Positions 5,201 through 45,020 are shown, counted from the first letter of the stretch. The stretch: 64,000 nt of DNA from Bifidobacterium erythrocebi (GCF_012932675.1 NZ_JAAIIF010000009.1:62001-126000); one strand, 5' to 3'. The notes: a model not told the origin generated them from the letters alone. Made by a program: numbers and translations.

Positions 5201-6523
5201 TCAGTGGCGCTCGACCACGCCGAGAGCCTTCTTGCCGCGGCGAATCAGCGCGAAGCGACCGGCAAGGAAGTCCTTGTCGTCCAGCACCGCCTCGTCGCTC
5301 TCCACGCGCACGTTGTTGAGATACACGCCGCCGGACTTGATCGCACGGCGCGCCTCGGAACCGGACTTGAACAGACCTGCTGCCTGCGCCGCGTCGATCA
5401 CGCGCGCACCGGCCTCGGACTGCGGGAACACATGCTCGCCGTTCTCGTCGGCGACCTTGAATCCCTCAAGCACGGATTCCAGCGTCTCCTCGTCGATGGC
5501 GGCAAGATCGCCGCCACGGCCGAACAGCGCGGCGGAGGCGTCGATGGCGGCCTGGGTCGCCTTCTCGCCATGCACGAAGCTGGTGACCTCCCACGCCAGG
5601 GCCTTCTGCGCCTCGCGAGCGCCGGGGTTCGTCCTGCTCTCCTCGATCAGATGCTCGATCTCGCTCTTCGGCAGGAAGGTGAACGCCTTGAGCAGGCTCT
5701 CCATCTCCGCGTCCGGGCGGTTGATCCAGAACTGGTAGAACTTGTAGGGGCTCAGCATCGTGGGGTCGAGCCACACCGCATTGCCTTCGGACTTGCCGAA
5801 CTTCTTGCCCTGCGCATCGGTGATGATCGGGCTGGTGAACACGTTCACGTCCACGCCGCGCACCTTGTGGATCAGGTCCAGACCGGAGGTGAGGTTGCCC
5901 CACTGGTCGGAGCCGCCGAGCTCAAGCGTGCAGTGGTATTCATCAAACAGGTGCAGGAAGTCGTTGCCCTGCAGCACCTGGTAGCTGAACTCGGTGAAGG
6001 AGATGCCCTCCTCGGACTTCAGGCGTCGAGCCACGGTGTCCTTGGCGAGCATGGTGCCCAGACGGAAGTTCTTGCCGACATCGCGCAGGAAGTCGATGAC
6101 GCTCATCTGCGCGGTCCAATCGTAGTTGGAGACGAAACGCACCGGATTGCTGCCCTCGGTGTCGAGGATGCCGCCGATCTGCCTCTTCAGGCGCTCGGCC
6201 CATCCGGCCACGACGTCCTTGGGGTTCAGGGTGCGTTCGCCCGACTGGCGCGGGTCGCCAATCAGACCGGTCGCACCGCCGACCAGGGCGATGGGGTGAT
6301 GGCCCGCAAGCTGCAGGTGACGCATGTTGATGAGCTGAACGAGGTTGCCGATGTGCAGGGAGGCCGCGGTGGGATCGAAGCCGCAATAATAGGTGATCGG
6401 CTCGCCGTCAAGTGCCTGGGCAAGGCGTTCACGATCGGTGGACTGGGATACCAGACCACGCCACTGAAGTTCCTCGAGCAGAGATGAAAAACCTGCTTCC
6501 CTGAAGTCAGTGATACGAGCCAT
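5201..6523 (-). CDS. tyrS: Tyrosyl-tRNA synthetase
   Basis: Class I aminoacyl-tRNA synthetase charging tRNA-Tyr, 440 residues. The catalytic Rossmann fold carries HIGN (HIGH motif) near residue 58 and KFGKSEG (KMSKS motif). The Tyr-binding YQVLQG and the GGSDQWGN loop are both present. The C-terminal 70 or so residues form an S4 RNA-binding domain. Length and motif order are normal. AGGGAG about 11 bases upstream is a distant Shine-Dalgarno. No T-box leader was recognised in front of it. Confidence 0.96.
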
Positions 6524-6667
6524 ATCTTGTTAATCTCCCTATCAAATTCTTGGGTTCCGAATGCGCATAGCGCACCATTCAGTCTCGCAGAACATCACGA
6601 CAGCATCACGTCGGCGCAACAGGTCGCCCGGACGGCACCGCCGAGCGTTGGAAACGATTGCAAAAAC

Positions 6668-6673
6668 TATACT
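6668..6673 (+). promoter_or_regulatory. Likely -10 element for the 6735 membrane-protein gene
   Basis: TATACT in the 211-base divergent region between tyrS and the gene at 6735. No convincing -35 element is seen. Transcription would start near 6680, which puts the 5' UTR hairpin CACTTGG/CCAAGTG (6681-6687 and 6700-6706) at the very start of the mRNA. Confidence 0.45.
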
Positions 6674-6734
6674 GGGGGAACACTTGGGCATGTGTGTGTC
6701 CAAGTGACGCATATCCAAGGAAGACAGGGGAACA

Positions 6735-8588
6735 ATGAATCGAAAAGCCTTGAAATCACAGGCTAAAGTCACATTGAAGCGCCATTACTGGCTCATTCTT
6801 GTGCTGTGCCTGTTCGCGGCGTTCCTCGGCGTCGAATACGGTTCGACGCTGTGGGCCACCGACTATCAGAATCCAACCGCCGTCAGCTCGGCAGCCGGCG
6901 AGGCCACGGCCACCAGCAGCGCTGCGAGCGACCAGCTGTCGTCAGACGGCATCTCCGAACTGCTGGGAAAGATCGTCTCCGGCGATGACGCCGGCGCGAA
7001 ACAGCAGGTGGAACAGTCCCAGAAGAATATCCAGGCCAACGACACCAACGCGACGCTCGGCCGTTCGCGCGGCGTGTTCGCCATGGTGCTGAACTCCTTC
7101 TCCACCGGCAGCGTCATGCTTTCCATCACCGACGCGGCAAGCTCCATCCTGCATTCGCGCGGAGGGGCGACCATCCTGCTGGTGCTGATCAGCCTGGCGG
7201 TGTATCTGTTCGTATGGCTGTTCATCCGTGAGACCTACCTGGTGGTATCCCGCCGCATGGTGCTCGAATCGCGTGTCTACGAGCAGGTGCCGATCCACCA
7301 TATGCTCTTCCCGCTGCGCACCCGCAAGTGGCCGCGCATCGCATGGACGATGTTCGTGAAAAGCGTGTTCCTGGGGCTCTGGTGGCTGACCATCATCGGC
7401 GGCATCATCAAGAGCTTCTCCTACCTGCTGGTACCGTTCATCGTCGCCGAGAACCCCTCCATCAAGGCATGCGACGCGATCACACTGTCCCGCCGCATGA
7501 TGAAAGGCCACAAGTGGGAGTGCTTCGTGGCCGTACTGACGTTCCTCGGCTGGGACATCCTGTCCATCTGCACGCTCGGCCTGACCGGCATCTTCTACTC
7601 CAACGGATACAAGGCGTCGTTCTGGGCCGAGTACTACACCTACCTGCGCGGTCTCGCCAAGCAGGCGAACATCCAAGGTGCCGATCAGCTCAACGACACG
7701 TTCCTGTTCGAGAAGGCACCGGCCGACCTGCTGGAACGCACCTACGCCGACGCGCGCACCGCCATCAACGAGGTGGACGCGCAGGGCGAGACCGTCAGCA
7801 AGCCGAAGGGCCTCGCCGGCTGGCTGGCCGACTGGTTCGGCATCCGCATCATGCAGTCCAGGAAGGTCGCGGCATGGGAGGACTACCAGGCGAAGACGCA
7901 TGCGCTGAAGACCGGCAGGGCCCTGCTGGGCGCGCAGATGTACCCGGTGCGCCTCTCCCCCATCCCCATGAAGGACAAGAACGTCAACGTGGGCGGCATG
8001 AGTGCCACGCGCAGCTACTCGCTGCTGAACCTGGTGATGATGTTCTTCATCTTCTGCATCATCGGCTGGGTGTGGGAAGTCGCGCTGTGCTTCATCGACG
8101 AGGGCGTGTTCGTCAACCGCGGCACCCTGCACGGCCCCTGGCTGCCGATCTACGGCACCGGTGGCATCTTCATCCTGATCGTGCTCAAGAAGCTGCGCGA
8201 GCACCCGGTTGCGGAATTCGTCTCCGCTGTCGTGCTCTGCGGCACGTTGGAGTACATCTCGTCGTGGCACCTGGAAATGACCAAGGGGCAGCGCTGGTGG
8301 GATTACACCGGCTACTTCCTGAACATCAACGGCCGCGTCTGCGCCGAGGGACTGCTGGTGTTCGGCCTGGGAGGCCTGGCGATCGTGTATCTGGTGGCGC
8401 CGACGCTCAACCAGCTGCTCGATCGCATCAACCGCAAGGCGCTGCTGTGCGTGGCGCTGGTGCTGCTGGTCTCCTACATCGGCGACCAGATCTATTCGTC
8501 ACAGCACCCGAACTCCGGCCACGGCATCACCGATACCGGCGCATCGGCGGTGCAGGTGGTGGAACCGTCTGCCCTGGGCTCGCGGTGA
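6735..8588 (+). CDS. Large membrane protein with DUF975-like N-terminus and CmpB (ABC_trans_CmpB) C-terminal domain
   Basis: 617 residues, polytopic. Residue 17 onward is a membrane anchor followed by a roughly 100-residue exported-looking loop rich in Ser/Ala. Several membrane segments typical of DUF975-like proteins follow, to about residue 330. From about residue 427 there is a CmpB/type IV ABC permease-like domain with IIGWVWEV, NRGTLHGPW, PIYGTGG and the conserved RWWDYTGY. The ATG follows an AGGGGAA Shine-Dalgarno. The neighbour at 8691 carries a second copy of the same CmpB domain. Transport function is inferred only from the family name; no ATPase is nearby. Confidence 0.8.
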   Translation: MNRKALKSQAKVTLKRHYWLILVLCLFAAFLGVEYGSTLWATDYQNPTAVSSAAGEATATSSAASDQLSSDGISELLGKIVSGDDAGAKQQVEQSQKNIQANDTNATLGRSRGVFAMVLNSFSTGSVMLSITDAASSILHSRGGATILLVLISLAVYLFVWLFIRETYLVVSRRMVLESRVYEQVPIHHMLFPLRTRKWPRIAWTMFVKSVFLGLWWLTIIGGIIKSFSYLLVPFIVAENPSIKACDAITLSRRMMKGHKWECFVAVLTFLGWDILSICTLGLTGIFYSNGYKASFWAEYYTYLRGLAKQANIQGADQLNDTFLFEKAPADLLERTYADARTAINEVDAQGETVSKPKGLAGWLADWFGIRIMQSRKVAAWEDYQAKTHALKTGRALLGAQMYPVRLSPIPMKDKNVNVGGMSATRSYSLLNLVMMFFIFCIIGWVWEVALCFIDEGVFVNRGTLHGPWLPIYGTGGIFILIVLKKLREHPVAEFVSAVVLCGTLEYISSWHLEMTKGQRWWDYTGYFLNINGRVCAEGLLVFGLGGLAIVYLVAPTLNQLLDRINRKALLCVALVLLVSYIGDQIYSSQHPNSGHGITDTGASAVQVVEPSALGSR

Positions 8589-25449: not shown

Positions 25450-28002
25450 TCAGTTGCCGAAGAAGGAGAACGTGCCGAAGGCCAGCGCCAGGCTCAGCGA
25501 GATCAGCGGCAATGCCAGGCATGCCACCAGGAACACCTTGTCGCGCGTGTGCACCGTGCTCACGCGGGCGTGGCTGCGCGGCCCGGTTCCGCCGAATCCT
25601 CGCGCCTCCATGGCCGTGGCCAGCGTGGTGGAGCGCCGGATGGACAATACCAGCAGCGCGAAAGTCTGCGGGAAGAACGCGCGAATCTTGCTGTCGTCGC
25701 CCAAACCGCGCGAACGGCGGGATGCAGTCAACGCGGCCCAATCGTCCTGCAGGACGGAGAACAGGCGCATGCCCGCCAAGCCGCCGTACACGAAACGGTC
25801 GGGCAAGTGCAGGATCTGGCTGAACGAATCCGCCAGATCAGTGGAGTCGATGCCGAGCACGGCGATGATCGCGGGAATGCCGATGGCGAGAATACGCAAC
25901 GCCGTTGCCAAGGCGAGTTCCGCGGAACGGTCGGTAACATGCATCAACCCCCACTGCCACCACAGGTTGCCGCCTGACTTGCCGTACAGCAGTACGGCCA
26001 GCGCGGAGCAGGGCGCACCGATGAACACCGGCCAGGTCGATTTCACCGTTTGCCATGGCATGATGCCGATGGCCATGAGAATGATGAATTCCATTACGAG
26101 CATGCTTCCCGAGGAAAGCCAGTCGAGGCTCAGCAGCATGGGCAGCGCCGCGAGGAAACCGCCGATCAGACGGTACGCGGGGTTGAGCGAAGCCAGGAAC
26201 GGCGAACGGCTGGATTGGCGTTCCCGCTCGTCACGCGTGTTCACTTGGCTTACCGGAATCACGCCGTCGCCGCAAGGCGAAGCATCGCCCGTCTTCTCCC
26301 CGGGGACGTTCCATTCCAATGCGGCGTTTTCAGGCAGCAGTTCGACCACGCGCGCGTCCAAAGCCGTGACCAGTTCCCTATCGTGCGTGACGACGATGAT
26401 GCTCACACCGTCCGACCGCAGGCTTTGGATGAGTTCCACCATCTGCATCCAAGTGTTGCGATCCTGCCCGAAGGTCGGTTCGTCGAGGATCAGCACGCGC
26501 GGCGCGGCGGCCAGAGCCGAAGCCACGGTAAGTCGGCGTTTCTCGCCGCCGGACAGCGTATACGGGTTGGCGTTCGCATAACGCAGCAGGTTGAATCGTT
26601 CCAGCAAACCGAGCGCACGCTCCTTGGCCTGTTGTTCATCAACGCCGGTGCGCAGCGGCCCGAGCATCACTTCCTCAAGCACGCTGCCTTTGACGAACTG
26701 GTGTTCGGGGTTTTGGAACACGTAGGAAATGCGGGATGCAAGTTCGGTGGACTTCCATGAGCTGGGGTGTGTGCCGCGAGCGCCTTCCGCCAGCGAGCGC
26801 GATGCTTCCACGTCGCCGCTTACCGGTTCGAGCAGGCCGGCGAGGGTGAGCGAGAGTGTGGATTTGCCGGCGCCGTTCGCGCCGACCACCGCGGTGATCT
26901 GGCCTTGTTTGAAGGCGAGGTCGATGCCGGTCGCCACCGCTGTGCCGTTGCGTCCGATGGCGAGATCATGGGTGTGGAGTACCGGTTCGCCGGTGCCTTC
27001 GCGGGCCGGGTAGTCGGGTTCGCCGTCGACGTGGATGGGGGCGATGCGGTATTCGTCGCGCATGTATCGTTCCGGCACCCAGATGCCGAGCTGCGCGAAA
27101 TCGAGGTTCGGATCGTTGAATACTTCGTCCGGGGTGCCGTCCGCGACGATGACGGTACGGCGTTCACCGTTCTCGCCGTTGTTCTCGCTGCCTTCACCAC
27201 GGTTCTCGCCGTTGTTCTCACTGCCGCCCTTACCACCGGTTTCCCCGTCGTCTTCGGCGGATCCCAGCACGACCACGCGGTCGATCAGGTCGATCCACGG
27301 CTCGGCGCGATGCTCCACCAGCACCATGGTCGAATGGAATTCGTCAAGCACGTCACGCACCGCGCCCACCACTTGTGTGACGCCGTCGGGGTCAAGATTC
27401 GCGGTGGGTTCGTCCAGCAGCAGCACGCCGGGCCTCATCGCCAATGCGCCGGCCAAGGCGAGCCGTTGCATTTGCCCGCCGCTCAGATGGGTGATGGAAC
27501 GGTGCAGTTGCAGACCTTTCAACCCGACTGCGGCGAGACTGCTGTCCACACGCTTCCAGATCTCATCGCGTTCCACATTGAGGTTCTCCGGGCCGAAGGC
27601 GACATTGTCGCCGAGCCGTTGGAACACGGCTTGCGCGTCCGGGTCCTGCAATACCAGGCCCACGCGCCCTCTCGCTTCACGTACGGGAACGTCATCCACC
27701 AGCACGCGCCCTTCGGTCGCACCGCCTTCGGCGTCGACCACGGCTACCGTACCGTCATCCGCGGTTTCCGTGCCTTGAACGTATTCGCCGGACCCGAGCA
27801 GCCCAGCCCCGCCTTCGAGAATGGTGGATTTGCCAATGCCGGACGCGCCCAACAGCAGCACGCGCTGCCCGGCTTCGATGTTGAGGTCGAGCCCGCGCAC
27901 GCTGAAATGCTTGCGCGACGCGTGACGGTACCCCCAATGTTCGAAACGCAATGCGGCGTTCTGAAACGGTGTGATGGCAGGTGTTGCTGAAGATTCAGGC
28001 AC
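25450..28002 (-). CDS. ykoD-ykoC: Fused ECF transporter: two ATPase domains plus T (transmembrane) subunit, YkoD-YkoC type
   Basis: 850 residues from the GTG at 28002, with AAGGA eight bases upstream. ATPase domain 1 has Walker A GASGIGKST (about 52-60), LSGGQ and LLLDEPTANLDPDG. ATPase domain 2 has GANGAGKST (about 374-382), LSGGE and LILDEPTFGQD. From about residue 605 it is an EcfT permease with the two coupling motifs SRRSRGLG and EARGFG. A Glu/Asn/Gly-rich spacer (about 258-280) sits between the ATPases. It is paralogous to the separate genes at 41844-44226. The neighbouring ykoE and TPP riboswitch point to thiamine or a precursor. Confidence 0.92.
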   Translation of the reverse strand: MPESSATPAITPFQNAALRFEHWGYRHASRKHFSVRGLDLNIEAGQRVLLLGASGIGKSTILEGGAGLLGSGEYVQGTETADDGTVAVVDAEGGATEGRVLVDDVPVREARGRVGLVLQDPDAQAVFQRLGDNVAFGPENLNVERDEIWKRVDSSLAAVGLKGLQLHRSITHLSGGQMQRLALAGALAMRPGVLLLDEPTANLDPDGVTQVVGAVRDVLDEFHSTMVLVEHRAEPWIDLIDRVVVLGSAEDDGETGGKGGSENNGENRGEGSENNGENGERRTVIVADGTPDEVFNDPNLDFAQLGIWVPERYMRDEYRIAPIHVDGEPDYPAREGTGEPVLHTHDLAIGRNGTAVATGIDLAFKQGQITAVVGANGAGKSTLSLTLAGLLEPVSGDVEASRSLAEGARGTHPSSWKSTELASRISYVFQNPEHQFVKGSVLEEVMLGPLRTGVDEQQAKERALGLLERFNLLRYANANPYTLSGGEKRRLTVASALAAAPRVLILDEPTFGQDRNTWMQMVELIQSLRSDGVSIIVVTHDRELVTALDARVVELLPENAALEWNVPGEKTGDASPCGDGVIPVSQVNTRDERERQSSRSPFLASLNPAYRLIGGFLAALPMLLSLDWLSSGSMLVMEFIILMAIGIMPWQTVKSTWPVFIGAPCSALAVLLYGKSGGNLWWQWGLMHVTDRSAELALATALRILAIGIPAIIAVLGIDSTDLADSFSQILHLPDRFVYGGLAGMRLFSVLQDDWAALTASRRSRGLGDDSKIRAFFPQTFALLVLSIRRSTTLATAMEARGFGGTGPRSHARVSTVHTRDKVFLVACLALPLISLSLALAFGTFSFFGN

Positions 28003-28080
28003 TGTGACGATCCTTGCTGTACTTGCTGTGGTTCTCATGATGAGGTTCGCCGTTTCCGGCATGGGTGTTCGGAACGTATC

Positions 28081-28125
28081 GATACGGCCCGCATCGGTTC
28101 GTCGCGGACCGTTGCGGGCCGTATC
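28081..28125 (-). other. Intercistronic hairpin between ykoE and ykoDC
   Basis: Perfect 13-bp arms GATACGGCCCGCA/TGCGGGCCGTATC (28081-28093 and 28113-28125) in the gap between the S-component gene and the fused energizing module. It may attenuate the downstream gene or stabilise the upstream mRNA. Confidence 0.6.
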
Positions 28126-28146
28126 GGCGGGTGTTGCGGGAACGGG

Positions 28147-28761
28147 TCAGTTCAAGCCGCGCACCTCGCGGCCGGACGCGAACTTGTCGAGCGCACCCGT
28201 TTTGGCGATGCCGAGGTACAGGAACCACATGAGCAGACCGGCGACCAGCGTGCCGGAAACGACGGTGGTGATGAGGTAGACGACGCCGTAGGAGCCGGCG
28301 ATGTCGATGGCCTGCAGGTGAGTGAAGAAGCTGTAGGCCCAGCAGCCGACGCCGGACAGTGCTCCGGAAAGCAGCATGGTGCCGATGTTCCACTTTCGGT
28401 AGGCGAAGATGAGGAAGGCGATTTCGGCGGTCACGCCCTGCGCGAGGGCGATGGAGAAGGTGTCGAGGCCGCCCCACTGGTTGCCGAGCAGCGCTTCGAG
28501 CACGCCGCCGACCACTTCGGCGTAGATCGCGGCGCCGGGCTTACGCACGATGACCGCCGCAAGCGGTGCGGCGAACAGCCACAGGCCGTTGAACAGGCCA
28601 GCAAGGCCGGGGACCACGGCTTCGAGCACGCTCCACGGTGCGGCGGTGACGATGGAGACCAGCCAGTAGATCAGAGCCGATGCGACGCCGATCACGGATG
28701 CGACGGCGATGTCGACGACGCGCCATTTGAAATTGGGTTTGCTGATGGTTGTTGCAGACAT
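28147..28761 (-). CDS. ykoE: ECF transporter S component, YkoE family (thiamine or HMP uptake)
   Basis: Membrane substrate-binding subunit, 204 residues from the ATG at 28761, with AAAGG upstream. It has about six membrane segments and the YkoE features VRKPGAAIYAE and ALLGNQWGG. 3'-side segments include ALSGVGCWAYS. It partners the fused A-A-T protein downstream. The TPP riboswitch in the leader indicates repression when thiamine pyrophosphate is plentiful. It is paralogous to the gene at 44388-45020. Confidence 0.9.
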   Translation of the reverse strand: MSATTISKPNFKWRVVDIAVASVIGVASALIYWLVSIVTAAPWSVLEAVVPGLAGLFNGLWLFAAPLAAVIVRKPGAAIYAEVVGGVLEALLGNQWGGLDTFSIALAQGVTAEIAFLIFAYRKWNIGTMLLSGALSGVGCWAYSFFTHLQAIDIAGSYGVVYLITTVVSGTLVAGLLMWFLYLGIAKTGALDKFASGREVRGLN

Positions 28762-28766
28762 GGCAA

Positions 28767-28819
28767 GTGCCTTTCTTCTCAGGTCGACGCAATGCGCCGG
28801 CGGGGTTTCAAGGCACGGG
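28767..28819 (-). promoter_or_regulatory. Shine-Dalgarno sequestering stem of TPP leader 1
   Basis: AAAGGCAC, which contains the ykoE ribosome site, can pair with GTGCCTT just after the aptamer (plus-strand blocks 28810-28816 and 28767-28774). The adjoining CCCGTG can instead pair with CACGGG of the aptamer. This suggests a translational switch. Confidence 0.6.
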
Positions 28820-28824
28820 AAATA

Positions 28825-28928
28825 AGAGCGACAATATCCGTGCCCGGCATTGCCCGCGCACGTTCCATCGGTCGAGATCCTCACGATCTCCTCTCAGCCG
28901 CCATATGGGGCAGCTCCCGTGTCGCTCT
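28825..28928 (-). promoter_or_regulatory. TPP riboswitch 1 (THI element) before ykoE
   Basis: Read on the minus strand it has CACGGGAGC, GCTGAGAGG, CGACC followed by GGAAC, and GCACGGA in the order of the TPP aptamer. Stem P1 is a perfect nine-pair helix, AGAGCGACA with TGTCGCTCT, at the two ends. Placement directly before an ECF S component fits thiamine control. Confidence 0.9.
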
Positions 28929-29013: not shown

Positions 29014-30150
29014 CTATCTGCTTTTGAAGAAGCGCAGGAGCTGGGATTCTCTCACGCATATCCCGGCAAGGAACGTCGCGACGGTGACACCGGCGAAGGT
29101 CATGGCCGGCACCCGGCAGGCGGCGAGGAATATCTCCAGCCACCCATCCACGGACATTCGCCAACAGTATGCGCATAGCAACGCCACGCATGCCAAGCTT
29201 GCAAGCCCCGACCAGATAAGCGTTTCGATATGCATGCCGAGCATCTGCGCGGCTTTGGACTGGCCGATATGCAACGCTCCGGCGTATTCGAGCCGCCGAC
29301 GTCGCACGGAGATCACGCCGACGATGATGCCGACGCCTAAGGCCACATACGGCAGCCATGCGGACATGCGATGCGCGTAACTGGATGCCGCGTCATAACG
29401 GCTGTCGAAGGACTTGTTGACTTGGGCGACGGCCGTATTGCCATCCGACGCGGTGACGATGGCCGTGGAACGCAACAGTTCGTCGGTCTGCTCGGTGACC
29501 GGCCATTGCTTGGCCCAGCATTCGGTGAAGGTGCCCGACGACGCGGATACCGGCACGATCGCCGCGTAGGCGAATCTGGAATCACGCCCGTCATTGGGCC
29601 AGGAGTACACACCCGCGACCGTCATATCACCATGGTTAGTTTGCATGACGCTGCCTTTGACGAGGCCGAAATCGCGGGACACGTCCGTGGAAACCCATAT
29701 GCCGGACGTATCGACGGTTCCGTTCGTTCCCGACGTTGAAGACGCCTGCGATCCGGAATCGTTGGCGGAAGACGCCGCGTCCTCGCCGCCCGAAACGAGC
29801 AACGGTATGAATCCCGGCGTCACTTCGTATGCGGGCAGTTCCATGCCCGGTGTGGATGCCGCAGTGATGCTGTCCGTGGCCCGTGCCGCTCCGGACAAGG
29901 TTGGCCCGTTATCGACTTGGGTGAGCGCATCGCAGGCCACGCCATCTACGCCGGCTCCGACCAGCGCCTTGGTGTCCGCGTCGGCTGCGATGCGTGTGAC
30001 GGCCTCCTGTTCAAGCCGCACGATGGATGTGGCTTCATACCCGCCCAGCAGCAGTCCGGTGATGAGAACGATGAGAAAGAACCATGCGGCACGCGCGGTT
30101 CCCGCGCTGATGTTGCGTACGGCTTCGGAAACAATCGATCGCAATCTCAT
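29014..30150 (-). CDS. ABC exporter permease, MacB/FtsX-like
   Basis: 378 residues. One N-terminal membrane segment (about residues 18-42), a roughly 200-residue outer domain rich in Ser/Thr/Gly, then three membrane segments near the C-terminus: the MacB/FtsX layout. The ATG overlaps the ATPase stop in ATGA, so the two are coupled. With the ATPase and the peptidoglycan-binding adaptor it forms a three-part exporter. The substrate is unknown; neighbouring secreted products suggest a peptide or its immunity. Confidence 0.8.
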   Translation of the reverse strand: MRLRSIVSEAVRNISAGTARAAWFFLIVLITGLLLGGYEATSIVRLEQEAVTRIAADADTKALVGAGVDGVACDALTQVDNGPTLSGAARATDSITAASTPGMELPAYEVTPGFIPLLVSGGEDAASSANDSGSQASSTSGTNGTVDTSGIWVSTDVSRDFGLVKGSVMQTNHGDMTVAGVYSWPNDGRDSRFAYAAIVPVSASSGTFTECWAKQWPVTEQTDELLRSTAIVTASDGNTAVAQVNKSFDSRYDAASSYAHRMSAWLPYVALGVGIIVGVISVRRRRLEYAGALHIGQSKAAQMLGMHIETLIWSGLASLACVALLCAYCWRMSVDGWLEIFLAACRVPAMTFAGVTVATFLAGICVRESQLLRFFKSR

Positions 30151-30872
30151 TGTTCGCCCTTCCCACCCGCTGCCGGTATGGAAACGGTAGGCTCGTCCGT
30201 TTGAGAGCGCGACGGTTGAGACTTTGCGTCGGAGCCCGGCAAGGCTGCCTGTTCCTCCATGCTGCCGGCGGGCGCGTAATGCGCAAGATCGATGATTCGC
30301 CCACATGCGTCCCGCGCACGCGGATCATGCGTGGCCACCACGACGATCATGCCTTGCCCGGCGAGATTGCCCAACACTTCGCTGACGGAACCCGCGGTTC
30401 GCGTGTCCAACTGGGCGGTCGGCTCATCCACCAGCAGCACGTCGGGATGCGAGCACACCGCACGCGCGAGCATGAGCCGCTGCGCTTCACCTCCGGACAG
30501 TTCGGAGAATCTACGATCCGCCGCATAGTCCAGATCGAACAATCCCATGGCATCCTTAGCCTCCGGGATCGCCTCGCGTCGGCTCATGCCATGGCAGAGC
30601 AGCGGAAAGACCACATGGTCGAGCGCGGTTCGTTCGGGTACGCCGTATGGGTTCTGGAATACCCATCCGATGCGGTGAATGCCTTCGCGTTCCACATGCC
30701 CGGCCCACGGTTTGACCCATCCCGCAAGAATGGACAGCAATGTGGATTTGCCGCATCCCGATGGCCCGCAAAGCGCGACGGTCTGCCCGGGGGCGATGGT
30801 GAAATCAAGGTGTTCGAAAAGCACGTCCGTTCCCGGGAAACGGTGTGCCAATCCTACTGCTTTCAGGAGCAT
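30147..30872 (-). CDS. ABC transporter ATPase, LolD/MacB type
   Basis: 241 residues with Walker A GPSGCGKST (about 37-45), Q-loop VFQNPYG, signature LSGGE, Walker B LLVDEPTAQLD and the H-loop ATHDPRA. This is the pattern of the LolD/MacB/FtsE exporter ATPases. It overlaps the upstream adaptor by 10 bases and the downstream permease by four, so all three are one translational unit. The C-terminal 30 residues are a Ser/Thr/Gly-rich tail outside the fold. Confidence 0.9.
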   Translation of the reverse strand: MLLKAVGLAHRFPGTDVLFEHLDFTIAPGQTVALCGPSGCGKSTLLSILAGWVKPWAGHVEREGIHRIGWVFQNPYGVPERTALDHVVFPLLCHGMSRREAIPEAKDAMGLFDLDYAADRRFSELSGGEAQRLMLARAVCSHPDVLLVDEPTAQLDTRTAGSVSEVLGNLAGQGMIVVVATHDPRARDACGRIIDLAHYAPAGSMEEQAALPGSDAKSQPSRSQTDEPTVSIPAAGGKGEQ

Positions 30873-31948
30873 GTCGCGCCCGCGATCTTCGACCCCACGG
30901 CCACCGAAGTGATGGAGGCGGCATCATCGGAACCGAGTTGCACAAGGCTCACGCCGAGCGACGACCCTACGATGCTGACGGTATGCGACGTTCCATCCGG
31001 CGTCATGATGCAACCTTTATTGCCGTTGATGCCGTAGACCGCTCCAGCAGGTACACGCAGCGCGTTGATGGCTTGCGGCAGCGCAAGCGTGGCGCTGATG
31101 CCAGCGGCAAGCGTTTCCTTGGTCTGGGACTGGTATTCCTCGGTAGCCGACACCTGTTTGAGATAGTCGGCATTGTCTATGGCTGTTTGACCTGCGGGCA
31201 GGGTGGTCGACTGCCCGTACACCGTGATGATGCGGTCTTGGTCCGACGGTGTGGCGTTCTTGATGCTGAGTTTGACGAGCGCTCCCGGGATTTCGCCGAT
31301 CTGTGTGCCTTGCGTGACGTTCGCGCCGGCAGTGCCCTGCCAATCGCCGACGCTGATGCTCTGTTCGGGAATCCACAGGATATCGGCAAGCTGCAGAGTG
31401 CCGTCACTATCGGAACCGTTGTCCACCATCAGTTGCTTCCACCCTTGCTGCGTGTTCCACGAGTAGCGGTCACTGTCCGGATCGGACAGATATCCGAGTC
31501 GATTGAGCTCGTTGTTGAGCGCCCGAACATCCTGACCACGATCCTCCACATGCAGGTCGCGGTAAAGCGGTATGGCGGTGTTGAGTGCGATGACGGCACG
31601 ATCGTTCACACGCATGCACGCGCGGCCGGATGCCAGCCCGCCGCTCGAATAGTCTGCGGTTACGGTGCCGTTGCTGTTGCCGAGCAATGCGCGGCTGTTC
31701 GAAATGCTGGGGATGAGGGTAACGGTCTGCGACCCGTTGTATTGCTGCGTGGATACTTTAGCTTCGGTGATTTCCCCCGAAGCGCCCAATAGTGCCGGTG
31801 GCCGGTCGGGCAGGAATACCGCGCACGCCCCCACGCTGACCGCTGCCGCCACGATGATGGACATCACGATCCATACGGCGACATTGACGTGCCGACGCCG
31901 TTTACCGGTATCTCTTCCCTTGACTCCTCGTTCACGACGGAACAACAT
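30863..31948 (-). CDS. Membrane-anchored adaptor with peptidoglycan-binding-like domain
   Basis: 361 residues from the ATG at 31948, nine bases after GAGGGGG. A basic N-terminus and one membrane segment (about residues 22-45) anchor an outer domain. Residues about 130-165 match a peptidoglycan-binding-1 repeat (HVEDRGQDVRALNNELNRLGY). The C-terminal half has RVPAGAVYGINGNKGCI, like the barrel/hairpin part of MacA/HlyD-type adaptors. It overlaps the ATPase gene by 10 bases. In Gram-positives such proteins pair with MacB-like exporters of antimicrobial peptides. Confidence 0.8.
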   Translation of the reverse strand: MLFRRERGVKGRDTGKRRRHVNVAVWIVMSIIVAAAVSVGACAVFLPDRPPALLGASGEITEAKVSTQQYNGSQTVTLIPSISNSRALLGNSNGTVTADYSSGGLASGRACMRVNDRAVIALNTAIPLYRDLHVEDRGQDVRALNNELNRLGYLSDPDSDRYSWNTQQGWKQLMVDNGSDSDGTLQLADILWIPEQSISVGDWQGTAGANVTQGTQIGEIPGALVKLSIKNATPSDQDRIITVYGQSTTLPAGQTAIDNADYLKQVSATEEYQSQTKETLAAGISATLALPQAINALRVPAGAVYGINGNKGCIMTPDGTSHTVSIVGSSLGVSLVQLGSDDAASITSVAVGSKIAGATCS

Positions 31949-32022
31949 TGCTCTCATCCCCCTCGATGATCCGCATCGGATTTCATATCATGCCTGGCGT
32001 CATGCTTGACGTGCAGGCCGCA

Positions 32023-32799
32023 TCATCCCAACGGTTTCCAATACGAATCCGCATCCTGCGCATTGGCGACCCCATACTGGTAGAGCGTGAAGCATTCCTG
32101 CGCCTCCGCACTGGAGAAGAACGCCGGCGCCGAATCACTGCTCCAATCCTTCGAGAACTGCTCTTTGGTGTACGAAGTCGGCGCGACCTTCTTCTGGATG
32201 AGGCAGTTCACGAGCAACTGGTCACTGTCGGTCGACAGCTCCGGATTGCTTTCCTGCGTACGATACAGCTGATCGGTGTTCGTGTTCTCCGAAATCGAGC
32301 AGAAGTTCAGATCGCTGACGAGTTTCTCGTCCTGCGTCTTGCTCATGCCTTCTTCGTTCATGCTGGGAACCGCATAGAATCCGCCATATGCGGTCGGTTT
32401 GGGGTCGGTCCACCCACGGTTCATGATGCACGAGCGGAAATTCATCCAGGACTGTTCATAATCAGCGCGGGACACTTTCCCCTCATTAGCGATTGCGCGG
32501 TTGATGATGTCCCGCTGCGCATCGCTCATCGGAATCTGCGTGCTGTTGGAATCCTTGCGGATGTCGTCATCGCTTTTCAACATCCACTCCGCGTATGCCT
32601 TCAACGACGACGCATAATGCTGCCGATCGCTTCCTTCAGCCGACTGCGGCGCGGATGCGGAGGAGGAGGAAGAGGACGATGCGTTGGAATCAGCGCCCTT
32701 GTTCTTCGCGGCCCCCGGAGTGGAGCATCCGGAAAGACAAACCCCCACGCATACCGCAATCGCCACGGCGGTAAAAACTTTATGCCACATAATTTTCAT
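32023..32799 (-). CDS. Secreted lipoprotein of unknown function
   Basis: 258 residues from the ATG at 32799, eight bases after a GGGGG block. The signal peptide ends in a lipobox (LSGC), followed by a Ser/Ala linker and a soluble domain with four Cys (RSCIM, NFCSI, VNCLI, QECF) that may form two disulfides. No known family was recognised. It lies between the secreted 108-residue protein and the exporter, all on one strand, so it may act with them outside the membrane, possibly as an immunity or sensing protein; that is inference. Confidence 0.75.
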   Translation of the reverse strand: MKIMWHKVFTAVAIAVCVGVCLSGCSTPGAAKNKGADSNASSSSSSSASAPQSAEGSDRQHYASSLKAYAEWMLKSDDDIRKDSNSTQIPMSDAQRDIINRAIANEGKVSRADYEQSWMNFRSCIMNRGWTDPKPTAYGGFYAVPSMNEEGMSKTQDEKLVSDLNFCSISENTNTDQLYRTQESNPELSTDSDQLLVNCLIQKKVAPTSYTKEQFSKDWSSDSAPAFFSSAEAQECFTLYQYGVANAQDADSYWKPLG

Positions 32800-32817
32800 C
32801 ACAACATCCCCCATAGG

Positions 32818-32870
32818 GCCTGTTTGCGCCGCTGAGTTATCCTGTTATCCTCGCGGCGGCGCAAACAGGC
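32818..32870. other. Strong hairpin between the secreted protein gene and the lipoprotein gene
   Basis: Perfect 15-bp arms GCCTGTTTGCGCCGC and its complement (32818-32832 and 32856-32870). It follows the stop of the 108-residue protein and immediately precedes the lipoprotein ribosome site, so it can separate expression of the two. Confidence 0.7.
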
Positions 32871-32882
32871 ATTTACTCATAT

Positions 32883-33209
32883 CTACTGATATGAGTATTC
32901 CACCCAATCTTCATGCGCAGCTTGGGTACCATTCGCGATGGTATGGCATTGTGTATATTTGGAGGCCGATTGGTAGCGTACAATCGTTCGGTCTTGCACA
33001 GATCGGCAATAATGGCTTCGCGAAGAGGAATAACCTGTTACCTCAGACTTGGTGGGTGTAACATCCCAGCTAGCCTGATAGTATCCTATGTTAGTGCTCC
33101 CCTTGCTGACAGGATATTGTATATACGCGTTAGCAGTAGCAGCCACCCCAGTGCACATTCCGAGAGCGGCAATAGCAGATACTATCGCTGTTATCATTCT
33201 TTTTCTCAT
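32883..33209 (-). CDS. Small secreted protein, candidate lactococcin-972-type bacteriocin
   Basis: 108 residues with a clear Sec signal peptide (MRKRM, hydrophobic core, then cleavage after ATANA at residue 28). The mature 80 residues begin YIQYPVSKGSTNIGYY, close to the start of mature lactococcin-972 relatives, then are rich in Ser/Tyr/Thr with two Cys. A strong AAAGGGG site lies before the ATG. The adjacent exporter with peptidoglycan-binding adaptor is a context also known for this bacteriocin family. The likeness is weak beyond the N-terminus, so the bacteriocin call is tentative. Confidence 0.5.
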   Translation of the reverse strand: MRKRMITAIVSAIAALGMCTGVAATANAYIQYPVSKGSTNIGYYQASWDVTPTKSEVTGYSSSRSHYCRSVQDRTIVRYQSASKYTQCHTIANGTQAAHEDWVEYSYQ

Positions 33210-33407
33210 ATTAATCCCCTTTGATAAACATGAATTATCAATTACCCTTCGAGCTCAACCCCCTTAGAAATTCAGCTCATTTTTATTGTATATCAAATCG
33301 CTACATCATGTCATCTGACACGCCGTCCATATCGCATTCTCCGTTATCGCATCTATAGCCGTCCATGCGGCATAAATAACAACAACCAGCAAACAACACA
33401 GCAAACG

Positions 33408-34331
33408 CTAGGGGCGGAATACACTGCCCGGCACTGGGACATCCGAATCATTCCCCAATTCGCCGAAATCCATCGCCACAGTTTGCACACCAGTCACATG
33501 GGAATTGCTTGAATACCGATTATCCGCGGAACGAGGAACCTGCATTTCCAGCCCACTCGCGGGGAGTTCCGAATACACGTTGTCTATCGGCCCAACGGCA
33601 TAACAGGCAAATCCCAGAACCGCAATCACCATATACATGCCGGCGAGAACCAAGCATCCGGCATTGATAAGATCAACACCGCCGGAGACTGGCGAGAATT
33701 GGTAATTGAATCGGTAGCGTGTCAGTAGCTCAAGCATGGCCGGTCGGACACACACCATCAACTGGGCATATTCCAACATTACATACCCTAGACAGTATGC
33801 AAGAGTCCGCCCTGCTTTCTGTTCTCCAACAACGGTCAACCCCAATGGAGCGAATAGCCTGCTCTGCCGACTTCTGCAGCACAGCCCGCGCAGCCACCAT
33901 ATCAGGCACAAATCGGTTATCGGCCAAGGCGATATCTTCAACGTCGACAACGATGTCGAACCTGAAAACGGATGCCCGTCGGCAGTGAAGTTGAAGAACG
34001 GCCACCACATCACGAATTCAACATAACTGCACACTACGGCATAGATAAGGCAAGCGGATATCTCGATACGATTGCATGTCCTCTCCCGTCTCACCCCCGA
34101 CTGCACCATACGAACCAATCGCGAGGACTTACGGTCTTCGATGGAACCGACACTTCCGGGACGGTACGAGTTGAGGCATTGAGGGCATACGACTTCACAT
34201 TCCTGAATCCAGTTGTCACAGGAATCGCAATGCCAGTATGTTCCGGAATATTGGGGCAGAAACCGGTAGGCGGCCAATAACAGCATCCACAATGGCGGCC
34301 ACGCATAATCGCGGATAATCTCACCGATCAC
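33408..34331 (-). CDS. Polytopic membrane protein with zinc-ribbon motif
   Basis: 307 residues, unknown family. An N-terminal membrane segment is followed by two CxxC-type knuckles (CDSC and CPQC, about residues 35-55), likely binding zinc. Three or four further membrane segments lie at about 95-115, 135-150, 195-215 and 235-260. The tail of 40 or so residues is polar. The coding DNA is visibly richer in A+T than the rest of the window. It sits upstream of the secreted-protein gene, so an immunity or processing role is possible but unproven. Confidence 0.65.
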   Translation of the reverse strand: MIGEIIRDYAWPPLWMLLLAAYRFLPQYSGTYWHCDSCDNWIQECEVVCPQCLNSYRPGSVGSIEDRKSSRLVRMVQSGVRRERTCNRIEISACLIYAVVCSYVEFVMWWPFFNFTADGHPFSGSTSLSTLKISPWPITDLCLIWWLRGLCCRSRQSRLFAPLGLTVVGEQKAGRTLAYCLGYVMLEYAQLMVCVRPAMLELLTRYRFNYQFSPVSGGVDLINAGCLVLAGMYMVIAVLGFACYAVGPIDNVYSELPASGLEMQVPRSADNRYSSNSHVTGVQTVAMDFGELGNDSDVPVPGSVFRP

Positions 34332-34396
34332 CGCTTGTCAGACTCCCCAATAACGCATCAATCTGCCGCTCACCCTGCCAGAAAGCGATGCCTGCA

Positions 34397-34555
34397 TCAG
34401 CGATTCGCAGCATTCTCATAATCGGTTTCGGTAAGCACGGCAGACGTTGCTTCATCATCGGTGACTGCATGCGCCGGAATCGCGATACATCCCAGAATCG
34501 CCACCGAGACCACTGCGGAAATAAGGATTACCGATCGTTTCATCATTGATTTCAT
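34397..34555 (-). CDS. Short secreted peptide, 52 residues
   Basis: Starts near MKSMMKRSV, with a hydrophobic signal sequence ending AIPAHA and a predicted 22-residue acidic mature part starting VTDDEAT. Cys in AILGC could instead be a weak lipobox. A GGTGGGG site is distant from the ATG at 34555. The frame continues upstream to 34738 without a better start. It may be a real small secreted peptide or the remnant of a longer gene. Confidence 0.4.
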   Translation of the reverse strand: MKSMMKRSVILISAVVSVAILGCIAIPAHAVTDDEATSAVLTETDYENAANR

Positions 34556-34690
34556 CAAGTTTCTCACCCCACCGCTAATACTACCAGCGTCGGCTATGCG
34601 AGGCACGCCCGTTACAACGATTGTCGAGGAAACCCTCTTTGGAAAACGATTACAAAGCGCGAATAACGGCGGCGATTCATGCATGGTAAT

Positions 34691-41843: not shown

Positions 41844-42680
41844 TCAGTTGCTCACGCCGCTGAAAGCCCAATGCCAGTAGCCGGTGCAATACGCCGTGAT
41901 GAGCGCAATCGCCGGCACCGCGGCGCATATCAGGTAGAATCCCCAGTCAACCGCATGCAATCGCGATTCACGGGCCTGGCTGCGCGGCAGTTCGGAACCG
42001 AATCCACGCGCCTCCATGGCGGTGGCCAGCTTCGTGCCGCGCCTGATCGACACGACCAGCAGATTGAACGCCTGGGAGATCACACGTCTGATGGCGTTGC
42101 CGTCGCCAAGGCCACGCGAGCGGCGGGCCTGCCCGAGCATGCGCCAGTCATCCTGCAGCAGGGTGAACATGCGCAGCCCGGCTAAACCGCCGTATACGAA
42201 TTTCGACGGCAGGTGCAGGATCTGCACGAGGCCGTCGGCCAGATCGGTCGGGTCAAGCCCGAGCGCCAGCATCACGCCGGGCACCGCGATCGCGGCGACG
42301 CGCAGGAACGTGGCCGCCGCCAGATACAGCGATCCCTGCGAGATCACCACGAACCCGCCCAGATCCACCAGCACATCGCCCGACGCCTTGCCGTACAGGG
42401 CCACGGATACGAAGCTTCCCGTGGCTGCGATCCACACCGGCCAGGTCTTGCGCAGCACCGTCCACGGCGCGATGCCGCCGATCCACAGCAGAACCATCTC
42501 CAGCCCGAACGCCACCGATGCGGACATGATGTCGAGCGTGAAGAACATCGGGATGCACAGGAGCAACGCGCCGATGAACCGGCTGACCGGGTTGATCCGT
42601 GCAATGAACCATGATGGCGATGCGGGGCGGGATACGTCGAGACGTTCCGCATGTGGTACGACCGTAATGCGCTCAGTCAT
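41844..42680 (-). CDS. ykoC: ECF transporter T component, YkoC type
   Basis: 278 residues, about five membrane segments, with the coupling motifs ARRSRGLG and EARGFGSE. It aligns along its length with the C-terminal domain of the fused protein at 25450-28002 (shared QILHLPSKFVYGGLAGLR-like stretch). Its start overlaps the ykoD stop by eight bases. It forms the energizing module with YkoD and serves the S component YkoE. Confidence 0.9.
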   Translation of the reverse strand: MTERITVVPHAERLDVSRPASPSWFIARINPVSRFIGALLLCIPMFFTLDIMSASVAFGLEMVLLWIGGIAPWTVLRKTWPVWIAATGSFVSVALYGKASGDVLVDLGGFVVISQGSLYLAAATFLRVAAIAVPGVMLALGLDPTDLADGLVQILHLPSKFVYGGLAGLRMFTLLQDDWRMLGQARRSRGLGDGNAIRRVISQAFNLLVVSIRRGTKLATAMEARGFGSELPRSQARESRLHAVDWGFYLICAAVPAIALITAYCTGYWHWAFSGVSN

Positions 42681-44226
42681 GCTGTTCCTCCTCGCTGACT
42701 ATGATGCGGCGCGCGTCCAACGCCTCGATCAACGCCTCATCGTGCGTGACCATGATCACCGCGGAGCCGGCGTCGCGCACGTCCGCGATCAGGCGCACCA
42801 TTTCCGTCCATGTGGTGAAGTCCTGGCCGAAGGTCGGCTCGTCCATCACCAGCACCTTCGGCGCGGCGGCCAGCATGGATGCGACCGACAAGCGTCTTTT
42901 CTCACCGCCCGATAGCGTGAACGGATTGGCTGGTCCGAAGCGTTTGAGGTTCACGCGTTCCAGCATCTCGTCCGCGATCCGATACGCCTCCTCATCCGAC
43001 TTCCCCATGGACTTGGGGCCCACGGCGATCTCATCGCGCACGCTGGATGTGACGAACTGATGCTCCGGCTCCTGGAACACCATGCCCACGCGCCCCAGCA
43101 GATCACGGCTTTTCCATGTGCCGACATCATTGGCCCTATGCGCAGGCACCAGGTGCTCCGCCATGCGCACATGGCCGGCGAGCGGTTTGAGCAGCCCGGC
43201 CAGCGTGAGCGCGAGCGTGGATTTGCCCACGCCGTTCCGTCCCGTGAGCGCGGTGACCTCGCCGGCATGGAATTCAATGTTGACATGCTCGCCGAGCGGG
43301 AAACCGCGGCCGAAGCTCAGATCGTCGGCGTGCAGCACCGTTTCGCCAGGCTGCCCGGCCGGAGGGCAGTGCGTGATGGTACGCCCCGGAACCCATGCGC
43401 CGCCTGCGGCGAGCACATCGCCCATAGCGCCGAACACCTTGCTCGGAGCGCCGTCCGCGATCACCCCGCCGACCAGCGAATCCCCGTCGGGCTTGCCCAG
43501 CACAATCACACGGTCGACCGTGTCAAGCCACACGTCGATATGATGCTCGACCACGATCAGCGTCTCCCCGGTGCGTTCGACCACACGCTTCACGGCATCG
43601 TGGACCTCCTTGACGCCTTCGGGGTCGAGATTCGCGGTCGGCTCGTCAAGCAGCAGCAGACCGGGATGCATGGCCAGCACGCCGGCCAGGGCGAGACGCT
43701 GACGCTGGCCACCGGAAAGCTTGCGGGTGGAATGGTCGAAACGCATGTAGTCGAGGCCGACCATATCCAGGGATTCGCGAGCGCGCTGCCAGATCTCGTC
43801 CTTCGGCAGCCCCAGGTTCTCGCATCCGAACGCGGCATCGTCGCCCACGCGTTCCAGAATCGTCTGCGCATCAGGGTCCTGCAGCATCAGGCCGGAGATT
43901 CCGCGCGCCGTGCGCGCCTCCGCACCACCGATCAGCAGATGCCCCTCCTGCTCGCCGTCGTCATCGCCGCCGAGCACGCCGGCAAGTCCCGCCATCAGCG
44001 TGGATTTGCCTGCTCCCGAGGCACCGAGCAGCAGCACGCGCTCCCCCGGCTCGATATCGAAGCTCACATGGCGCAGGGCGAAGTCCTTGCGCGAGGCATG
44101 TCTCCATCCCCAATCACGCGCCTGGACGCTCACGCCCATCGAACCTTCCGTGGTGTTTTCGGCAGCGGCACTTTCCAAGGCACCCGCTCCGGTCCCAGCA
44201 CCAGCGTTTTTGGCAGTATCAGCCAT
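42673..44226 (-). CDS. ykoD: ECF transporter duplicated ATPase, YkoD type
   Basis: 517 residues from the ATG at 44226 (GAAAGATCG upstream). Two ABC domains in one chain: domain 1 with GASGAGKST, LSGGQ and LLLDEPTANLDPEG; domain 2 with GRNGVGKST, LSGGE and LVMDEPTFGQD. A Gly/Ala/Glu-rich N-terminal extension of about 35 residues precedes the first domain. Both signature loops and the PTFGQD variant match the first locus, so the two loci came from one duplication or from repeated acquisition of the same system. Confidence 0.92.
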   Translation of the reverse strand: MADTAKNAGAGTGAGALESAAAENTTEGSMGVSVQARDWGWRHASRKDFALRHVSFDIEPGERVLLLGASGAGKSTLMAGLAGVLGGDDDGEQEGHLLIGGAEARTARGISGLMLQDPDAQTILERVGDDAAFGCENLGLPKDEIWQRARESLDMVGLDYMRFDHSTRKLSGGQRQRLALAGVLAMHPGLLLLDEPTANLDPEGVKEVHDAVKRVVERTGETLIVVEHHIDVWLDTVDRVIVLGKPDGDSLVGGVIADGAPSKVFGAMGDVLAAGGAWVPGRTITHCPPAGQPGETVLHADDLSFGRGFPLGEHVNIEFHAGEVTALTGRNGVGKSTLALTLAGLLKPLAGHVRMAEHLVPAHRANDVGTWKSRDLLGRVGMVFQEPEHQFVTSSVRDEIAVGPKSMGKSDEEAYRIADEMLERVNLKRFGPANPFTLSGGEKRRLSVASMLAAAPKVLVMDEPTFGQDFTTWTEMVRLIADVRDAGSAVIMVTHDEALIEALDARRIIVSEEEQHD

Positions 44227-44387
44227 CGATCTTTCTTCCCCACTCAAGCAACACATAGCAGCACATAGCCATCACATCAATCACATAGCCGGGCACGCAT
44301 CACAGCCGGCCGGCAAGCGATCAACGGGCAAACGGCGAGGCCCCGCGCCATATCACAAGACGCGAGGCCTTACCAGCCCAAATCCGA

Positions 44388-45020
44388 TCAGACCAGGGTC
44401 TGTACGCGACCGGATTCGAAGCGGTCAAGCACGCCGGTCTTCGCGATGGCACGCTGCAGCAGGCACATCACCACGCCGGCCAGCAGTGCGCCGGAGATGA
44501 CGGACGTGCCCAGGTAGATGCTGGAACGAAGCACGCCCCATGCCGGGTTCATGACCCAGTAGTAGAGGCCGCAACCCACGCCGGCCAATGCGCCGGACAC
44601 CGCGGTGCTCAGCATGTTCCAGCCCTTGTAGGCGAACAGCGCGAAGCCGATCTCCGCGCCGATGCCCTGCATGATGCCGACGATCAGCGATCCGCCGACG
44701 CCCCACTGATTGCCCATGGTGAGTTCCAGTGCGGCGGCGAGGGTTTCGGCGAACAGCGCGGCACCAGGCTTGCGCACGATGATGGCGGCAAGCGGGCCGG
44801 CGAACAGCCAGAACGCGTTGAGCAGGCCTTCGAAGCCCGGCGTCACCGCGCCGAAGATGGCCAGCGGGGCCGCGCAGACGATGTCCCAGCCCCAGAAGAT
44901 CACGCCGGATGCCACGGCGATGATGGCGGCCACCACAATGTCGACCACGCGCCATGTATTGCTGTGCTTGCGGACCACGGAAGACTCGTGCTCCGTGTTC
45001 TTGGTCGTCGATTCAGTCAT
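44388..45020 (-). CDS. ykoE: ECF transporter S component, YkoE family, second copy
   Basis: 210 residues from the ATG at 45020. Six membrane segments with VRKPGAALFAE, TMGNQWGVGG and GALAGVGCGLYY, matching the first YkoE across its length. A TPP riboswitch and a ribosome-site-sequestering hairpin precede it. It carries a short Thr/Glu-rich N-terminal extension. Operon ykoE-ykoD-ykoC. Substrate inferred as thiamine or the HMP precursor. Confidence 0.9.
   Translation of the reverse strand: MTESTTKNTEHESSVVRKHSNTWRVVDIVVAAIIAVASGVIFWGWDIVCAAPLAIFGAVTPGFEGLLNAFWLFAGPLAAIIVRKPGAALFAETLAAALELTMGNQWGVGGSLIVGIMQGIGAEIGFALFAYKGWNMLSTAVSGALAGVGCGLYYWVMNPAWGVLRSSIYLGTSVISGALLAGVVMCLLQRAIAKTGVLDRFESGRVQTLV

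Follow-up and report, generated by a model that had tools for sequence, protein, structure and literature searches.

The window analyzed here is a stretch of 64,000 nucleotides from Bifidobacterium erythrocebi (NZ_JAAIIF010000009.1:62001-126000), which corresponds to G000:C23:62001-126000 in our numbering, where G000 is the 2.29 Mb Bifidobacterium genome that contains it. Between positions 29,014 and 34,555, the minus strand carries an island that is probably a bacteriocin-type module, in which a secreted protein of 108 amino acids (S) would be the effector, a lipoprotein (L) its cognate immunity protein, and an adaptor, an ATPase, and a permease (A, B, and C) a MacAB-type pump, shared and serving immunity, not export. 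Comparative genomics makes the bacteriocin interpretation of the island a well-supported one. The first-pass annotation had proposed that the island makes and exports, or protects against, an antimicrobial protein; the antimicrobial half of this proposal is favored by the pairing of S with L, the existence of orphan L genes, the co-divergence of the two proteins, and the replacement of S by a known bacteriocin in another genome, but export by A-B-C is doubtful.

The five genes follow one another on the minus strand: S (33209-32883), a reading frame also identified by a family profile and predicted to be Sec-secreted; L (32814-32023), a reading frame with the lipobox LSGC; A (31957-30863), a membrane-anchored adaptor with a PG_binding_1 segment, HlyD/MacA-like according to profiles in its homologues; B (30872-30147), an ABC ATPase; and C (30150-29014), a permease that weak profiles in its homologues place as MacB/FtsX-like, 378 amino acids long when read from the ATG that gives a 4-base overlap. 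A and B overlap by 10 bases (30863-30872) and B and C by 4 (30147-30150), as annotated in the first pass, and all seven frames of the minus-strand row described there, including two upstream of S, exist where they were placed. The A+T-rich 5′ part of the island is equally real, the G+C content being only 46–54% at 32.8–34.7 kb and 60–68% in both flanks. What recurs in other genomes is, however, S-L-A-B-C only, without the two upstream frames, a zinc-ribbon protein and a peptide of 52 amino acids.

S starts with a K/R-rich segment followed by a hydrophobic core and an ANA cleavage site of the AXA type, i.e., an ordinary Sec signal peptide, and its predicted mature part spans approximately residues 28–108 (81 residues), with Cys68 and Cys88 conserved. 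Searches of Pfam and NCBIfam returned zero matches for S, even at E ≤ 10. Within Bifidobacterium, a family profile built from 12 sequences (A4) detects S at 25 loci, which belong to 12 of 112 genomes; four genomes of two other Bifidobacteriaceae genera add six loci (31 in all), and a sample of 394 further genomes from across the class gave no match. Judged by these searches, S founds an undescribed family confined to the Bifidobacteriaceae. S has multiple paralogues, with up to eight profile matches within one genome. Seven S–L pairs, some of them decayed, are spread over contigs C1, C5, C7, C11, C12, C17, and C36 of genome G027, which has a single close adaptor; this multiplication resembles an arms-race-like expansion.

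The lipoprotein has no Pfam family, in line with its initial description as a protein of no recognized family. An AlphaFold2 (AF2) model built from 11 sequences is helical, with a mean predicted local distance difference test (pLDDT) score of 79, and nothing in the PDB clearly matches its fold (best Foldseek E 0.85 and VIA-align Z 5.2, weak and unrelated). L, as detected by profile A3, is far from restricted to loci with S: at least 150 copies are distributed over 62 of the 112 Bifidobacterium genomes, mostly without S and often in tandem. The reverse does not hold, as L lies directly 3′ of S, on the same strand and 99–255 bp away, at all 25 Bifidobacterium S loci and directly behind S at five of the six loci in the two other genera (30/31 in total). 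The sixth precedes another S–L pair, and its own frame runs into unrelated sequence. All four genomes of these genera have the order S-L-(L)-A-permease, as in the window. The distribution of S (12/112) and L (62/112) is the one expected of an effector always accompanied by its immunity gene and an immunity gene that also occurs alone.

S and the fast-changing L have also diverged together. For 18 full-length pairs, the two distance matrices are correlated with a Mantel r of 0.79 (p 0.0001), phylogeny being uncorrected in this comparison; when S was permuted solely among paralogues of the same genome (nine pairs in two genomes), r was 0.73 (p 0.004). Of 122 L genes, 33 have a small secreted frame upstream, as against 20 of 329 control genes; several of the 33 frames are lipoproteins themselves. 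Separately, small secreted proteins belonging neither to the S family nor to PF09683 are encoded directly upstream of L genes at L074:10857-11177 and L101:7606-7938, and near such a cassette at L097:1581-1952; these are possible further cargo families.

The strongest single reason to assign S a bacteriocin-like role comes from genome G072, in which a lactococcin-972 (PF09683) gene holds the place of S. At this locus (L155:2870-6815, on G072:C20), the PF09683 gene (6815-6588, 45.9 bits) heads a cassette of the L-A-B-C type, with L (9.8e-17), A (1.8e-86), and the permease (5.9e-113) following on the same strand and an ATPase 53% identical to B of the window. A two-component system adjoins the cassette, and a hairpin lies 3′ of the PF09683 gene. 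The first-pass annotation had called S itself lactococcin-972-like. As a statement of family membership, this fails: apart from the empty Pfam and NCBIfam searches, S is unmatched by the PF09683 profile at E ≤ 10, and hhalign probabilities against nine bifidobacterial PF09683 proteins are only 1.6–3.3% for the S-type group, the T-type group (the second of two sequence groups among the small secreted proteins), and the two combined. S-type and T-type align with each other at a probability of 91%; hence, they form one family, separate from PF09683. The term holds as a functional analogy. PF09683 genes occur in 14 of the 112 genomes. A genuine one (46.9 bits) is found elsewhere in the genome of the window, at G000:C12:98506-98667 (L001, L156), where a 727-residue frame and an ABC ATPase adjoin it in the classical layout, together with genes for a histidine kinase and a response regulator.

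Inspection of the same locus in other genomes showed that L-A-B-C is syntenic and S patchy. In B. pongonis, B. merycicum, and B. thermophilum, L-A-B-C is flanked by an M20 peptidase and an energy-coupling factor (ECF) transporter; the latter is also its neighbor in B. apri, which has three extra tandem L genes. The B. pongonis L-A-B-C proteins are 96–99% identical to those of the window (98% for the adaptor), but 1.9 kb corresponding to window positions 32781-34688, comprising S, the zinc-ribbon frame, and the 52-residue peptide, are missing. Similarly, S is absent from B. thermophilum, whose L genes (two or three) and pump are retained. Of the S-bearing Bifidobacterium genomes, two lack an intact adaptor (G012 and G064), and in both of them S and L are partial or decayed. 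Carriage by a mobile element was considered and set aside: the island has no plasmid match, and its sole “phage” match, MT839410.1 (L184, labelled “Bacteriophage sp.”), is an unverified 4.3-kb human-faecal scaffold with S, L, adaptor, ATPase, and response regulator genes, a content that points to a mislabelled fragment of a bacterial, bifidobacterium-like chromosome. A role in anti-phage defence was likewise dropped, PADLOC giving no match.

Several observations weigh against the bacteriocin interpretation. The presence of a lactococcin-972 gene in an L-A-B-C cassette is seen in just one of the 14 genomes with PF09683 genes, namely G072; no L, A, or permease of the window type lies near the other lactococcin-972 loci examined. 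Lactococcin-972 is usually accompanied by a DUF1430 permease, in the classical layout present in G000 too. In B. merycicum (L044), S is intact, and L (6141-6935) and the adaptor (7001-8095) are interrupted by an in-frame TAA and a TAG, respectively, an unexpected state for a toxin locus unless a second L-A-B-C copy (G045:C11) protects the cell. The AF2 model of S, computed from three sequences, has a mean pLDDT of 38 and is unusable as a fold model. Phylogeny was handled in the co-divergence test by within-genome permutation alone. Finally, obligate pairing and co-divergence are equally compatible with a secreted ligand and its lipoprotein receptor.

This last point defines the leading alternative, which we consider improbable, i.e., that S is a pheromone-like secreted signal and L its receptor, with the pump and nearby two-component genes sensing or clearing the signal and co-divergence reflecting ligand specificity. 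Two-component genes of the kind that adjoins the G000 and G072 lactococcin-972 genes, which served as queries, are indeed found at 31 of 61 adaptor loci, but none adjoin the island of the window; their likeness to lactococcin-972 neighbors also counts in favor of the bacteriocin interpretation. Moreover, L genes and pumps are often retained where S is lacking, a state in which a receptor would be useless; the paralogues of S reach eight profile matches in one genome; and it is a known bacteriocin family that takes the slot in G072.

The pump deserves closer consideration, as the first-pass annotation regarded it as a MacAB-like exporter. Its parts are MacAB-like, albeit by weak profiles. PG_binding_1 is detected in 14 of 21 adaptor homologues (best 2.5e-8), and a few of these also match HlyD_3 (2.2e-5) and Biotin_lipoyl_2 (3.2e-4), consistent with an HlyD/MacA-like adaptor. 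B matches PF00005 (ABC_tran) at 2e-28. MacB_PCD is found in five of 21 permease homologues (best 0.005) and FtsX in one (0.0086), and the permease of the window has no MacB_PCD or FtsX match of its own in the Pfam search, so that the MacAB-type assignment of C by profile is a weak one. An L gene lies within 6 kb of 44 of 46 close adaptors. Two further lipoprotein–adaptor cassettes are present in the genome of the window, both with the S gene absent: one at G000:C20:314296-318356, with two-component genes, and one at G000:C23:153377-154968.

It is the exporter role that is doubtful. If A-B-C were a dedicated exporter of S, as initially proposed, L would be a surface accessory of export, and the system could act in trans. 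Pumps of the MacAB type do export peptides and proteins, the genes are adjacent, and B scores weakly with TIGR03608 (L_ocin_972_ABC, a bacteriocin export subfamily), at 1.9e-34 and 118.9 bits, i.e., under the cut-off of 254.85 bits. However, the ordinary Sec signal and AXA site of S make ABC export unneeded, most genomes retain the pump in the absence of S, and no adaptor gene lies within 12 kb of, or on one contig with, 12 of the 25 Bifidobacterium S–L pairs. We therefore regard this alternative as very unlikely; the same 12 pairs suggest that one pump serves several S–L pairs. The least probable account is that L-A-B-C performs ordinary envelope maintenance, handling lipoproteins or wall precursors, with S a minor wall protein alongside: its wide and syntenic distribution and the peptidoglycan-binding segment of the adaptor would suit such a function, but not the restriction of S to a few genomes, its low G+C content, rapid divergence, and multiple paralogues, or its replacement by a lactococcin-972 protein in G072.

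The bacteriocin interpretation can be cast as a sequence of events. With its Sec signal peptide, S would leave the cell through the general secretion pathway, and the 81-residue protein thus set free, probably with a single disulfide bond, would act on the envelope of competitors that are mostly relatives of the producer. L would bind S from its anchor at the outer surface of the producer membrane, and A-B-C would work with L to clear S from membrane or wall in the manner of NisFEG and NisI, serving several S–L pairs in trans. At one fixed site in the chromosome, S may come and go, with L-A-B-C retained as resistance.

The sequence upstream of the S start (gene at 32883-33209) is AAAGGGGATTAAT, and a candidate S promoter, ATGACA-18-TACAAT (33285-33314, minus strand), agrees with the consensus at 10 of 12 positions; such motifs are not above chance in regional count, and only the position of this one speaks for it. 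Between S and L, an inverted repeat on the minus strand (32818-32870), unmentioned in the initial annotation, forms a hairpin with a perfect 15-bp stem (−35.9 kcal/mol, z −3.46), and none of 200 shuffled sequences was equally stable. Most loci with a wide S–L gap (~120 bp or more to the edge of the L profile) have a strong hairpin of unrelated sequence, and loci with a short gap are mostly without one. A terminator or partial terminator yielding S in excess of L, or an element stabilizing the mRNA, would explain the hairpin; alternatively, it may be an ordinary S terminator, with a separate promoter for L.

The two frames upstream of S are outside the conserved unit. The zinc-ribbon membrane frame (34331-33408, minus strand), which has a GTG start, is absent from the other genomes of the set of 112, save for a C-terminal remnant of 127–131 residues in B. 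merycicum (residues 177–307, with a TAA within the matched frame), and is by this comparison accessory or decaying. The 52-residue peptide (34555-34397, minus strand), a reading frame with a signal peptide, is 80% identical to its B. merycicum counterpart over residues 1–45, after which the sequences part, and is not conserved beyond that species. Elsewhere in the window, two ECF-type transporter clusters (25450-28884 and 41844-45020) encode S-component-like proteins that are 48% identical to each other.

On a broader scale, we lean slightly toward the view that the Bifidobacteriaceae possess an undescribed polymorphic bacteriocin system, in which a standard chassis of lipoprotein, wall-binding adaptor, ATPase, and permease is combined with an interchangeable slot occupied by the S family (often as several S–L pairs per genome), by other small secreted proteins, or by lactococcin-972. 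Gene-level understanding of bifidobacterial bacteriocins is limited to few of them, and a search for literature joining Bifidobacterium, bacteriocins, lipoprotein immunity, and such a pump found nothing relevant. If correct, this view would open secreted antagonists and their matched immunity lipoproteins to sequence searches in an important gut and probiotic genus, as a family that also occurs in human-gut DNA; it would explain the frequent cargo-less lipoprotein–pump cassettes of bifidobacteria; and it would make strain-versus-strain compatibility testable from sequence.

Among known systems, the lactococcin-972 family, whose members bind lipid II and inhibit septum formation and for which the solved structure of Lcn972 (PDB 2LGN) has a beta-sandwich fold, offers a close functional parallel. 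Like Lcn972 and mediterrocin, S is a small protein secreted through Sec, within their range of ~60–90 mature residues, encoded next to genes for what would be ABC-type immunity, and in G072 a true PF09683 member stands in its place. There is no sequence or profile similarity, however, and S has a conserved cysteine pair, whereas a bacteriocin review describes Lcn972 as lacking cysteines (PMC8538875). The layouts also differ: known lactococcin-972 systems place the bacteriocin beside a DUF1430 permease and an ABC ATPase (PMC12345188, PMC4055356), and S is found beside a lipoprotein and the MacAB-like A-B-C, whose MacB/FtsX-like permease of 378 amino acids is not of the DUF1430 kind. For mediterrocin, the Sec signal was likewise used as an argument against ABC export (PMC12345188), and the ABC genes of Lcn972, orf2-orf3, have also been interpreted as immunity genes (PMC4055356).

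With the MacAB tripartite transporters, A-B-C shares an HlyD/lipoyl-like adaptor and an ATPase, and, by weak profile matches in homologues, its permease may have a MacB periplasmic core and an FtsX-like end. Unlike MacAB, A-B-C belongs to a host without an outer membrane or TolC, its adaptor has a peptidoglycan-binding segment, its permease is separate from the ATPase, and a lipoprotein is associated with it. The immunity systems of lantibiotics provide another functional parallel. S differs from lantibiotics in being an apparently unmodified protein, with no modification genes nearby; L is helical, with no Pfam relative or clear PDB fold match to liken it to NisI or SpaI; and A-B-C, with its wall-binding adaptor, is MacB-like, unlike NisFEG and SpaFEG. 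Nonetheless, the division of labor proposed for L and A-B-C would be the same as in those systems, in which the lipoprotein NisI or SpaI binds the bacteriocin and the ABC pump NisFEG or SpaFEG expels it (PMC8538875).

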